A stretch of 32,401 bases of DNA from a virus: the IMG/VR virus record IMGVR_UViG_3300042340_000166, positions 1 to 32,401 of that record. The stretch is one strand, 5' to 3'. The notes below the pieces were generated by a model that saw only the letters and a list, made by a program, of their open reading frames with translations, was not told the DNA's origin and did no database searches. Position 1 is the stretch's first letter. Every line of letters begins with the position of its first letter. Made by a program: the position numbers and the translations under genes. Positions 3-11,882 of the stretch are shown piece after piece.

Positions 3-125
3 CAGATGCGTATCTCGCGCCCATGCCCGAAGTGCCTTCCTTGGTGTGCCAAGGTATTCGGCAGGATCTTCTACACGATGGACGATGGCATCCATGAGTT
101 CGACATGGACATCATGAAGATCTAG
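3..125 (+). CDS. Possible C-terminal end of a plus-strand gene, cut by the left edge
   Basis: A plus-strand frame is open from the window edge to a TAG at 123-125 and encodes about 40 residues. It has a Cys-rich stretch (CPKCLPWC) and ends in an acidic tail (HEFDMDIMKI). Codon choice (AAG, GAG, ATC, TTC, GAC) resembles the real genes of the window. If real, it converges on the putative tape-measure gene and the two stop codons share the palindrome CTAG at 122-125. I do not recognise the protein. A competing minus-strand frame that starts at 95 and runs off the edge cannot be excluded, so this call is weak. Confidence 0.35.
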   Translation, partial: QMRISRPCPKCLPWCAKVFGRIFYTMDDGIHEFDMDIMKI

Positions 126-2041
126 AATGCCAGTGTGGGTCTTGCGCCTTGGAATCTTGGTGACATGTCGATTCCAGCCTGCTGCCTTGCGGAGGGGGGA
201 GTCGATATCACTGCATTGTTGTTGTTCTGAATGCTTGTGCTTGGTGCCACGATTGGCTGCGTCATGTCGGGAAGCGACTTGAGCATTCCGTTTTCCGAAG
301 ATGCGCCTGGAAGCGATGAACTGGACGGTGGCTTTGGAGCGAGATCGGGATACTTAGCCGCCTTTTCAATGTCATAGTCCGATGTTCTTGTTCCCATCAG
401 CGTAGTGTCTTCAGCACCTTGAGTCACTCGACCAGAACCAAAGAGTCCACCAGCCTTTGCCGAAGGTAGGCTGAGTTTTGCCGACATGAATGCTCCACCC
501 GACAGATACTGTGCCTTCGTGTATCCCTCCACGAACTTGTTTCCATCGAACAGCGAGTCCTCGAAAACATTATACTGATTTGAGTATATGTCGAGCAGTC
601 TCTTGCCGAAGTCTGCGGCTCTCCTGCCGTCTGGACCATCTTGTTCTATTTCATCAAGCAACTTGACGAACTTCATGCTTTCGTCTTTTATCTCGTTCCA
701 TCCATCCGCGAGCATTTGCCCCGTCGTTGGATCGTTGATGTTCTTGATGTTCATGTCATACAAGCCCTGATACTGCGACATCTTGAAGTTGAGCCTGTCG
801 AGGGATTCCTCCACGACAGGATACTTCGAAAGGGAATCCGCACCGAATGCTCTCGTATCCTGTGCTTGCATGGACTGCATTCCGCCACCAGTGATGGCTT
901 TGTATGCCTCAACCTGTTCCTTGGTGTTCGTACTCGACAGGGTGTTGGTGATGTTCCCTGCCTCATCCACGACCATGTCGATGCCGCGCGCGCGAATCCG
1001 CTCTCCGCTGGGAAGAGTGCTGATTCCAGCCTCGTCCTGTGCATTTGCTATGTCGAAGTCGGTGGTTCCAAGTTCCTCTGCGGTCTTCAGCGTAGTTCCA
1101 CCCTGCCCATCGGAAACCGCGTATTTCTTCTTGACTGTCTGTGCGCCGCGATTTGCGCCAGCCTTGAGCATGTCCTCGGTCTTTCCTTCGATGGCATTCT
1201 TTATTATCAAGCCAGCACCCGCCGCAAGCAGGAGTGGGAGGAATGCCGTTGTTATGAAGGGAACGATAGCCTTGAGTATCGTTCCTAGCACCCCCGTCAC
1301 CGCACCGAGGCTTGATACGAGGGCAGTTCCGATTGGACCTATCAGTTTGCTGACGAATGAACCAAGCCCACCCGAGAACATCCCCAATATGGGAGAGAGA
1401 AGGCTCGACAACATTCCAAGAAGCCCCTTGCCACCGCCTTCGCCAGCAGCCTTGTTTCCACCGAACAACTTGCTGAAGAAACCTTGCTGCCTTTGCTCAG
1501 ATTCAAGTTGATCCTGATCGTCCTCGCGCTCCTGTTCTTCGGCAATCTCTTGTTGCTGTAGAGCATCCAGATTATCGGGTGCTGCATTTCCCGTCGCGAA
1601 GGTTCCGATTGTCCCCATCATGCTCTGATGGATGTCCTTCAGGTAGATGTCGATGCGCTCCATGATCATTAAAAAGTCGGAATCCTTGGCAAAGGTTACG
1701 GGTACGCCCTTGTCATTCCAAAGTTGCACTATCTGCTTGATCTCAGCAAGCGCACCAAGATCCTTCCTTCTCTTCTCCCGATCCTCAATCTCCTGCTTGG
1801 TGAGTTTCCTGCCCTGCTCGTCCCTACCCGTGGCTTCATATAGTTCGCGTTTCTTGACCTCAGCCCTGTCGCGTATGATCTGCGATCCTGGAATCATGCG
1901 TAGAAGAGGCGACTTCGTGACAAGATTGCTCTGCATCTGTAGCAACGATGCCTTGAATGCCGTGCTTACAGCCTCCTTGGTGGAGTACTGCATGTACTGC
2001 ATCTGCTGATTCGGGGTCATTGATGGGTTTGGTAGTGCCAT
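122..2041 (-). CDS. Putative tail tape measure protein (T4 gp29 position)
   Basis: This 639-residue protein would fill the tail tube and set its length, like T4 gp29 (590 aa). What is seen: a Met/Gln-rich start, a charged helical stretch (about residues 55-190, rich in Lys, Glu and Gln), a long Gly/hydrophobic segment (about 205-282) and a low-complexity Pro/Ser/Asn-rich tail (about 560-639). A hydrophobic middle between polar helical parts is common in tape measures. The gene lies just after gene 26 and the short -1 frame ORF, where tailed phages usually place it. The ATG at 2041 is 4 bases past the TAG of that ORF, with only a weak GAGA-type ribosome site. The name rests mostly on position and composition. 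A different cyanophage-type virion protein with a membrane-like segment is the main alternative. Confidence 0.55.
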   Translation of the reverse strand: MALPNPSMTPNQQMQYMQYSTKEAVSTAFKASLLQMQSNLVTKSPLLRMIPGSQIIRDRAEVKKRELYEATGRDEQGRKLTKQEIEDREKRRKDLGALAEIKQIVQLWNDKGVPVTFAKDSDFLMIMERIDIYLKDIHQSMMGTIGTFATGNAAPDNLDALQQQEIAEEQEREDDQDQLESEQRQQGFFSKLFGGNKAAGEGGGKGLLGMLSSLLSPILGMFSGGLGSFVSKLIGPIGTALVSSLGAVTGVLGTILKAIVPFITTAFLPLLLAAGAGLIIKNAIEGKTEDMLKAGANRGAQTVKKKYAVSDGQGGTTLKTAEELGTTDFDIANAQDEAGISTLPSGERIRARGIDMVVDEAGNITNTLSSTNTKEQVEAYKAITGGGMQSMQAQDTRAFGADSLSKYPVVEESLDRLNFKMSQYQGLYDMNIKNINDPTTGQMLADGWNEIKDESMKFVKLLDEIEQDGPDGRRAADFGKRLLDIYSNQYNVFEDSLFDGNKFVEGYTKAQYLSGGAFMSAKLSLPSAKAGGLFGSGRVTQGAEDTTLMGTRTSDYDIEKAAKYPDLAPKPPSSSSLPGASSENGMLKSLPDMTQPIVAPSTSIQNNNNAVISTPPSARQQAGIDMSPRFQGARPTLAF

Positions 2042-2045
2042 GTTT

Positions 2046-2234
2046 CTATCTCAGTTTCTGCTGCTTTAGCCGTTCATTCTCTTCCTTCACATGCTTTAGC
2101 AGGAGTGTCGTGTATATCTCCCTTTCCCACGGAATCATATTCTCCAACTCTGTCAGTGAATACTTGTAGTGCTGCATCATGGCGAAGTTCGTTTGATACA
2201 GGTTTCCAAGCGAGTCATGACAGAGGTTCAGGTA
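2046..2234 (-). CDS. Short -1 frame ORF after gp26, probable frameshift extension (tail assembly chaperone T domain)
   Basis: From the T run to TAG at 2046 this frame encodes 62 residues containing HYKYSLTELENMIPWERE and a charged helical end (VKEENERLKQQKLR). It resembles the small domains after tail chaperones in many phages (a hydrophobic/aromatic run, then xSxxELxxMxxxER). The first ATG in the frame is at 2180, has no visible ribosome site, and would cut off family-like sequence ahead of it (LGNLYQTNFA). The frame is open upstream only to 2268-2270, inside gene 26, with no ATG, GTG or TTG. The likely route is a -1 slip from gene 26, giving a fusion of about 294 residues (232 from gp26 plus 62). 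If initiated at 2180 it would be a 44-aa protein. Confidence 0.65.
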   Translation of the reverse strand, partial: YLNLCHDSLGNLYQTNFAMMQHYKYSLTELENMIPWEREIYTTLLLKHVKEENERLKQQKLR

Positions 2235-2929
2235 AAAAAATCCTTTAGCCCTCTGAAATCCGTCTTGAAGTCATTCTTGCAGAAGATGCACTTGCATTCG
2301 ACCGTCTTGCTCAGGTAGGGTGTCTTTCTGTAGAAACTTCCTATGTTCTCAAACTGTGCCGTGCTGAGTGAGTTCACGAAGTTCACTATCTCGTCCTTAG
2401 TGAAGTCCTTCTTGTCGTAAACTTCATCGCCATCGAAGACCATGTCTATGGATTCAGCGATGAAGTCGATGATTCCATCGGCACTCATCTCATCCATGTT
2501 CTTGGTGGCATCCGACAGCCTTGGATAGCGCATGACCACACCGAGTTTGTCCGTGAGCATTATCTTGTTCGATGTGTTTTCAGGAAACACGACCTCAAGT
2601 TCCTCAAGATTTACGCTGATGTCGGTCATCTTCTCGCAGGAGGGGCATTTTATCCTTGCTTCGACCACTTCTCCAACAGACTTCGCGCGGATCCGTATGA
2701 ACAGATACTCTATGTCGAACATCGACAACTTCTGAACATCATCTACACCGTCAACGCATTGCTTGATTATGTCGCACATGCTTGTGAGCATCTGTGCTGC
2801 ATCCTTGCTTTCAAGTGCCATGAACAGTATCTTCTGCTCCTTCATGAGGAATGGGCGGAAGAAAGTTGTCTTCTTGGTTGATGGTATGGTGACGGGATAC
2901 TTCGGTACTGCTATCGTGGGTAGTGGCAT
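2228..2929 (-). CDS. 26: gp26-like baseplate hub / tail assembly protein
   Basis: This 233-residue protein matches the T4 gp26 baseplate family. The start has the typical pattern of a Pro-rich strand followed by FRPFLMKEQKILFMALES, and the end is GLKDFF. Two CxxC pairs (95-98, KCPSC; 214-217, CIFC) could bind one zinc ion. The ATG at 2929 has a good ribosome site (GGAG, 5 bases upstream). In T4, gp26 is needed for hub assembly. Here its place just before the putative tape measure, and the -1 frame ORF that overlaps its end, suggest that it also works as the tail assembly chaperone, like lambda gpG. The family call is firm and the chaperone role is inferred. Confidence 0.85.
   Translation of the reverse strand: MPLPTIAVPKYPVTIPSTKKTTFFRPFLMKEQKILFMALESKDAAQMLTSMCDIIKQCVDGVDDVQKLSMFDIEYLFIRIRAKSVGEVVEARIKCPSCEKMTDISVNLEELEVVFPENTSNKIMLTDKLGVVMRYPRLSDATKNMDEMSADGIIDFIAESIDMVFDGDEVYDKKDFTKDEIVNFVNSLSTAQFENIGSFYRKTPYLSKTVECKCIFCKNDFKTDFRGLKDFFT
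2234..2240 (-). promoter_or_regulatory. Candidate programmed -1 frameshift site (T7 run) at the end of gene 26
   Basis: On the minus strand gene 26 ends GAT TTT TTT ACC TGA. In zero-frame phase the heptamer is T TTT TTT, so P-site and A-site tRNAs can both re-pair fully after a -1 slip. The next codon becomes TAC and opens the 62-codon extension. A purine run, AGAGGG, lies about 8 bases upstream, similar in kind to the Shine-Dalgarno-like stimulator of dnaX. I did not find a convincing downstream stem or pseudoknot by eye. Confidence 0.6.
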
Positions 2930-2948: not shown

Positions 2949-3674
2949 TCATCTGTTTCTGAAAATCGCGTTCGGCACTATCTGCTGTACTTGTACTTGC
3001 TGAATACCTTTGTTCAGATTACTGAGAAGGGTATTTTCTTCTGGGGGAGGAACATCTCCGCGTGGGAAGATTCTTCCTATGACATGGTATTCCGAGTATG
3101 ACATTGTGACGGTGACGGTCGAGAACTGATCCTGTGCTTCCGTGTTCAGTTCCATCTCTCCGACAGACTTGCAGAACACATCGTAAAGTTCGACTCCATA
3201 GGTCTTGTTGTCCAGTGGGTCGAGTTGGTATATCTTTAGGGACACGCGGTACTGATCGGGATATATCAGATCGGAGGTGATGGGTGAGATTATGTGACCG
3301 ACCCATCGTTCGAACATGTCCCGCTCGAACATGTCGAGTCCGACGCGGAAAGTCATCTGCAACTCGTTGGCATAGTTGGCTTCGTAGGGAAACTCCCTTG
3401 GAGGACCATATATCTTGTGTGGCTGAGACTGTATGGATCTTCCTGGTATCGACAGACTGATGCAGTTTCTCACAAGCCGTTCATTCACCGCAGCATTCAT
3501 GTTGGTGAACTCAAAGGTGAATCGGTTTGTCTTTGAGTATCCACCCTGAGACACGATTGCCGCTATCTGTCGGGTTATGTTGCTGCTGACAGGATCAACA
3601 AACTGACTGCCGTTCGTTGCCGCTGGCGATGTGTCTGGTGATGGTATTCTGCTGGCTGCTCTCTGTAGTGCCAT
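2949..3674 (-). CDS. 54: Tail-tube-fold protein, probable gp54 tail tube initiator
   Basis: This 241-residue protein has the pattern of the T4 gp19/gp54 tail-tube fold: an N-terminal polar region (1-40), then NRFTFEFTNM, a strand with SIPGRSI, GPPREFPYEANYANELQMTF, a FERWVGHI helix, a sheet ending VSLKIYQLD, and a closing VGEMELNTEAQDQFSTVTVT. In T4, gp54 sits on gp48 and nucleates tube polymerisation. gp48 is the first gene of the divergent operon here, which favours gp54 over the tube protein gp19, usually found beside the sheath gene. The ATG at 3674 directly follows the TAA of the upstream gene. Telling gp54 from gp19 needs a profile search. Confidence 0.65.
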   Translation of the reverse strand: MALQRAASRIPSPDTSPAATNGSQFVDPVSSNITRQIAAIVSQGGYSKTNRFTFEFTNMNAAVNERLVRNCISLSIPGRSIQSQPHKIYGPPREFPYEANYANELQMTFRVGLDMFERDMFERWVGHIISPITSDLIYPDQYRVSLKIYQLDPLDNKTYGVELYDVFCKSVGEMELNTEAQDQFSTVTVTMSYSEYHVIGRIFPRGDVPPPEENTLLSNLNKGIQQVQVQQIVPNAIFRNR

Positions 3675-11214: not shown

Positions 11215-11220
11215 GCTTGG
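11200..11220 (+). other. Intergenic hairpin between helical protein and GAF-like gene
   Basis: CCAAGCC (11200-11206) pairs perfectly with GGCTTGG (11214-11220) over a 7-base loop that holds part of the stop codon. No T run follows, so it is not a standard intrinsic terminator. It may slow decay of the upstream message or reduce coupling to the next gene. Confidence 0.5.
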
Positions 11221-11252
11221 ACTCGCTAAACATCCTAAAGTTCGGAGAAGTC

Positions 11253-11882
11253 ATGGATACTACAGAGTACTATAAGTGGTTTGAAACCGGAGTGATCGTT
11301 GCTATGGTCATTTCGGGGTTCACATATGCCTTGAGCAAGGCGTTCAAGTTCATGAAGGTAAAGAAAACCAAGAAGGACGAAGAACGGTTCAACTATGTGA
11401 ACATGCGGATATGGAACATGATAACCAGTGTTCGGGAAAGAACGAAGGCTTCCCGAGTATCCTTGGTTCAGTTCCACAACGGGGGAAAGTTTGCGGATGG
11501 CTCTTCCATGAGGAGAATGAGCATCTCAAGTCAGACCTGCGACCCAAAGATATCCTCCACCATGCAGTTCCGACAGGATGTTCTTGTCAGTAGGTTTGTC
11601 GAGATAGTCGAGATGCTACAGGAGAACGATCCCCGCATCAGGATGGTTTCTCAGCAGCGCGACTCGAACACCAAGAAGTTCTACGAACTTCACGACACCG
11701 TCGCATTCTCAATTTTACCCATCTATTGCAGCGACAGCATGATCGCACTGGGCTACATATCTGTTGAATGGTGTGATCTTGGAACTTTGGATAAAATGGA
11801 TGATCAGGAACTGCTTCCCTTCATTGAAAACACCAGGAGTCAGATCGCATTCCTCATTAGTTCCGCAAAAGACTATCGATGA
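11253..11882 (+). CDS. Membrane-anchored GAF-like protein of unknown function
   Basis: I start this gene at the ATG at 11253 (209 aa) because GGAGAAG lies just upstream. A TTG at 11217 would add 12 residues but has no such site. There is one N-terminal membrane segment (about 12-31, VIVAMVISGFTYALSKAF), a Lys-rich stretch after it (KFMKVKKTKKDEER), then a soluble domain with VSLVQFHNGG (69-78), SMRRMSISSQTCD and ILPIYCSDSMIALGYISVEW, the usual ending of GAF domains. The positive residues after the segment suggest an N-out, cytoplasm-in arrangement if inserted in the host inner membrane. A soluble sensor-like domain among baseplate genes is unexpected. The last 4 bases overlap gp25 (ATGA). Confidence 0.65.
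   Translation: MDTTEYYKWFETGVIVAMVISGFTYALSKAFKFMKVKKTKKDEERFNYVNMRIWNMITSVRERTKASRVSLVQFHNGGKFADGSSMRRMSISSQTCDPKISSTMQFRQDVLVSRFVEIVEMLQENDPRIRMVSQQRDSNTKKFYELHDTVAFSILPIYCSDSMIALGYISVEWCDLGTLDKMDDQELLPFIENTRSQIAFLISSAKDYR

Follow-up and report, generated by a model that had tools for sequence, protein, structure and literature searches.

Predicted -1 frameshifting on a conserved T run joins gp26 to a gp51 domain in T4-like viruses

Introduction

In a 32,401-nt stretch of viral DNA (IMG/VR record IMGVR_UViG_3300042340_000166, positions 1 to 32,401; hereafter the window), gene 26 of a marine T4-like virus stops shortly after a run of seven T, and a second reading frame, displaced by -1, carries on beyond the stop codon. 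The locus raises the question of whether the two frames are joined by ribosomal slippage or whether the downstream frame encodes gp51 as a separate small protein, as the GenBank annotations of relatives assume. Our analysis favors the former with a probability of about 0.92: the gene 26 product would be the short tail assembly chaperone (TAC-N), -1 slippage on the T run would yield a 294-aa gp26-gp51 fusion (TAC-NC), and both would act as chaperones for the tape measure protein.

Results

Gene 26 is followed by a gp51 domain in the -1 frame

Gene 26 starts with ATG and its 3' end reads GAT TTT TTT ACC TGA (Table 1). The open -1 frame begins 43 nt ahead of where the gene 26 stop codon ends and runs to a TAG at 2048-2046; a slipped ribosome would read TAC CTG AAC CTC TGT CAT GAC and onward, 62 codons in all before the TAG, for a predicted fusion of 232 + 62 = 294 aa. 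The sequence-only reading had described this gene end, a 62-codon extension overlapping gene 26, and a fusion of that length, and its coordinates and numbers proved right. The run of seven T is the single such run in the window, and runs of six T are rarer than in shuffled sequence (5 versus 15 expected), so the run at the junction is not a by-product of base composition.

Table 1. Coordinates of the features discussed, with the evidence for each.
Feature	Position	Strand	Evidence
Putative tape measure protein, 639 aa, directly downstream	122..2041	-	Position, length, hydrophobic segment about 245-280
-1 frame extension, TAC-C (gp51 C-terminal domain), 62 codons + stop	2046..2234	-	PHROG 634, T4 gp51 similarity
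Possible downstream RNA stem	2150..2223	-	-23.8 kcal/mol, z -4.4
Gene 26, TAC-N (short form), 233 aa	2228..2929	-	PF12322 T4_baseplate 8e-60, PHROG 150 2.3e-64
Slippery heptamer T_TTT_TTT, zero-frame phase	2240-2234	-	Read from sequence; T_TTT_TTN in 120/120 loci, 71/71 clusters
Shine-Dalgarno-like AGAGGG, candidate stimulator	2254-2249	-	Duplex with 16S 3' end -6.3 kcal/mol; family synonymous-site enrichment
Tail-tube-like protein (tube or gp54-like), directly upstream of gene 26	2949..3674	-	PHROG 45 tail tube 2.6e-28

Profile comparison revealed that the extension is homologous to T4 gp51. The extension matched PHROG 634 (gp51 "baseplate hub assembly catalyst") with an E value of 3.7e-26, and residues 200-246 of T4 gp51 were similar to it when T4 gp51 was left out of the extension profile. 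The extension also matched the C-terminal end of the gp26 PHROG profile (1.6e-7), and the N-terminal part of T4 gp51 aligned with T4 gp26 (2e-6; 4e-7 with hhalign). On these alignments, T4 gp51 is a gp26-like N domain followed by the extension, in effect the whole fusion made from its own gene, and this composition leads us to expect TAC-N behavior from gp26 and TAC-NC behavior from the fusion. The AlphaFold model of the gene 26 product (pLDDT 85.8) had gp26 proteins from numerous phages among its matches. Its third PDB match was 2ob9, the HK97 tail assembly chaperone, a weak fold similarity that agrees with a chaperone role but is not significant (probability 0.75, E 0.94), and a search of the gp26 profile against the sequences of solved structures gave no match.

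The slip site and its phase are conserved

Scans of IMG/VR and of isolate genomes identified 121 loci with both domains. In 120 of them the junction carried T_TTT_TTN and the gp51 domain was displaced by -1 from the gp26 frame, and the sole exception was Aeromonas phage 25, which has a stand-alone gp51 as in T4. The last base of the heptamer was C in 86 loci, T in 31, A in 2, and G in 1. The isolates in the set included the Kyanoviridae P-TIM40, S-CAM1, ACG-2014d, S-SSM4, HTVC008M, and Melnitz-2, as well as Vibrio phage nt-1, Pseudomonas phage pf16, and Sinorhizobium phages phiM9 and phiM19; T_TTT_TTC was also read by eye in Syn1, S-P4, Aeromonas AsFcp_2, Rhizobium IC12, Stenotrophomonas Yut2, and Asteriusvirus SD-2_S15. 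The canonical heptamer was absent in three distant gp26 relatives, the Ackermannviridae JA15 and dinky and Vibrio phage K476. A start codon overlaps the gp26 stop in JA15 and K476, and the vicinity of the gp26 stop in Salmonella phage dinky lacks a usual start codon as well.

When the 120 loci were grouped at 70% identity into 71 clusters, the T run was kept in all 71. The codon preceding Phe-Phe, which specifies S, D, N, A, or G, ended in T in 71/71 clusters (expected 59%). The first of the two Phe codons was TTT in every cluster, compared to 66% elsewhere. The gene 26 stop lay anywhere from 7 to 31 nt from the start of the heptamer, with the heptamer itself staying in place.

Homopolymers are prone to sequencing error, and the arrangement could in principle reflect such an error, a misassembly, or the decay of an ordinary fused gene by one frameshift mutation; its recurrence across 120 distinct contigs and isolate genomes refutes this reading, to which we give practically no credence. 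Slippage of RNA polymerase rather than the ribosome on the T run would be conceivable for the seven-T homopolymer present here, but in 43 of the 71 clusters the site is six T followed by C, and a run of six T is short for transcriptional slippage. Furthermore, the heptamer always sits in the zero-frame phase that tandem tRNA re-pairing requires, which makes a transcriptional origin of the fusion highly improbable compared to slippage by the ribosome.

The pre-ATG segment of the extension is selected in the -1 frame

We also compared matched pairs over the stretch between the gene 26 stop and the first ATG of the extension. Differences fell at -1 frame third positions in 225 of 368 cases (p 1e-27, a value that is too small because the clusters are related). 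The first 50 codons of the -1 frame contained a stop in none of the 71 clusters, and the zero frame contained one in all of them. These sequence comparisons indicate that purifying selection acts on the segment as read in the -1 frame.

A separate start for gp51 fits the locus poorly

The sequence-only reading had maintained that the -1 frame offers no start before codon 19 and no ribosome-binding site at the first ATG, and both statements were confirmed: no ATG, GTG, or TTG precedes the ATG pair at 2180/2177, and the first of these, extension codon 19, is not preceded by a Shine-Dalgarno sequence. Its further claim that a start at 2180 would discard conserved-looking sequence also held, as such a start would drop HDSLxNYYxTNFA, where the domain is most conserved. 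A usable start was missing in most relatives; in 45 of the 71 clusters no ATG, GTG, or TTG near the junction could start the extension, and among all 71 clusters no candidate start in the remainder had a well-spaced Shine-Dalgarno sequence. An ATG overlaps the gene 26 stop in some relatives (e.g., L004, nt-1, and phiM9), where stop-start coupling could act.

Such overlapping starts, and the internal ATG used by annotators in Syn1, S-P4, HTVC008M, and Melnitz-2, are the grounds for regarding gp51 as a separate small protein that arises by re-initiation or from the ATG at 2180. That protein would lose HDSLxNYYxTNFA even though the segment is selected in the -1 frame, it has no ribosome site, and its production would leave the T run without a reason for being kept in 71/71 clusters; moreover, the homologous segment of T4 gp51 sits inside a longer protein. 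We thus consider a separate gp51 to be very unlikely and ribosomal slippage to be the preferred reading. Among deposited genomes, gp51 is annotated from an internal ATG, with loss of about 17 conserved residues, at L036 4753-4890, L046 1564-1707, L133 1264-1395, and L134 1264-1401, and the gp51 domain is unannotated in S-CAM1, ACG-2014d, and S-SSM4.

A Shine-Dalgarno-like element precedes the heptamer

A GAGGG sequence ends approximately 9 nt before the heptamer, a position that was compared across the 71 clusters. The conserved E-G pair at this location is encoded by GAG GGN much more frequently than in other places, with GAG in 35 of 46 cases compared to 28% gene-wide; at seven further columns with a conserved Glu, GAG makes up 19-38%. 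The mean energy of the duplex with the anti-Shine-Dalgarno sequence was -6.25 kcal/mol versus -4.92 kcal/mol in synonymous recodings, none of 300 recoded sets reached the observed strength, and the same recoding comparison detected no pairing excess at eight control positions. The GAGGG is badly placed for initiation of gp51 because there is no start codon at the normal distance. The codon usage and duplex energies point to the upstream AGAGGG as a likely stimulator of slippage. A downstream hairpin or pseudoknot is a possible, unproven candidate for this role, strongly folded in this virus (Table 1) and weakly mirrored in relatives, with a mean z across the family of -1.4 compared to -0.3 in a control region, a mild excess.

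The junction lies between tube-like and putative tape measure genes

The order of genes is tube-like, TAC, putative tape measure. The counterpart of the tube-like gene is annotated as gp54-like in HTVC008M and nt-1. Homologues of the 639-aa protein occupy the same place in the two nearest relatives (L002 and L003); PHROG and Pfam searches returned no profile that names it, and it did not match the HTVC008M tape measure. Its position, length, and hydrophobicity or composition make it a putative tape measure. It is also very fast evolving, with sequence matches in only the two nearest relatives, and gp26 and gp51 are found far more widely. Elsewhere in the window, an ORF at 11217-11882 with a TTG start and an N-terminal hydrophobic segment lies in the baseplate gene cluster and has PHROGs of unknown function as its only relatives.

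Discussion

From the sequence, homology, conservation, and selection described above, we infer that slippage occurs in this virus and that a minority of ribosomes undergo it. Most ribosomes would read through GAU UUU UUU ACC UGA and stop, producing the 233-aa gp26. In the remainder, the P- and A-site tRNAs(Phe) would both shift back by one base and re-pair on U UUU UUU, probably aided by pairing of the upstream AGAGGG with the anti-Shine-Dalgarno sequence of 16S rRNA, and these ribosomes would continue with UAC CUG AAC and onward to form TAC-NC. By analogy with lambda gpG and gpGT, many copies of TAC-N and a few of TAC-NC would coat the tape measure protein, recruit tube subunits, and then leave.

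The likeness to lambda is one of layout, in that the gene for a short chaperone and its -1 frameshift-extended form comes immediately before that for the tape measure, the latter being putative in this virus. The slip sequence in lambda is GGGAAAG, whereas that of this virus is T_TTT_TTT. Lambda proteins were absent from the profile search results, which thus showed no sequence relation to G/GT; the lambda tail chaperones are reviewed in PMC5009743. The gp26 and gp51 domains of T4 are homologous to the gp26 and extension of this virus, but T4 makes the two forms from two separate, divergently transcribed genes with no frameshift. Escherichia coli dnaX resembles the present site in having a Shine-Dalgarno-like sequence shortly upstream of the heptamer, at a spacing of about 10 nt. 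It differs in slipping on A_AAA_AAG with a strong downstream hairpin, compared to T_TTT_TTT and a weakly supported structure here. The internal Shine-Dalgarno sequence of dnaX is described in PMC5600365.

We lean slightly toward regarding the T4-like TAC site as a two-part cassette, in which T_TTT_TTN is combined with a conserved internal Shine-Dalgarno sequence that would set the TAC-N:TAC-NC ratio as in dnaX, and toward the stimulator being one that may be undescribed for tail chaperone genes. Passages of papers that cite Vladimirov et al. 2022 contained no description of the upstream element.

Frameshifting in T4-like chaperone genes is itself not a new proposal. In their abstract, Vladimirov, Gautam and Davidson (Virology 2022;566:9-15) reportedly named T4 genes 26 and 51 as T4-like tail assembly chaperones. 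Passages of the PRFect and Adele papers cite that study for these chaperones, as well as for poly-T frameshift signals in T4-like TAC-N genes and the two-gene alternative (PMC10885494, PMC12846349). According to these passages, the frameshift proposed in 2022 was of the same -1 kind, with a T run as its site in a number of T4-like groups, and the genes are reportedly the same; the present virus is a metagenomic relative. The link from gp26 and gp51 to the lambda G/GT frameshift system, as put forward in the sequence-only reading, is supported by the sequence tests but had already been published in 2022. What is added here is the breadth of conservation and the likely upstream stimulator.

Many deposited genomes misannotate gp51, which is either started about 17 codons late or omitted. 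Across many uncultured and isolated marine T4-like viruses, the "hub" proteins gp26 and gp51 look like tail chaperones of the lambda G/GT kind, and the two-gene arrangement of T4 appears as a departure from the frameshift layout.
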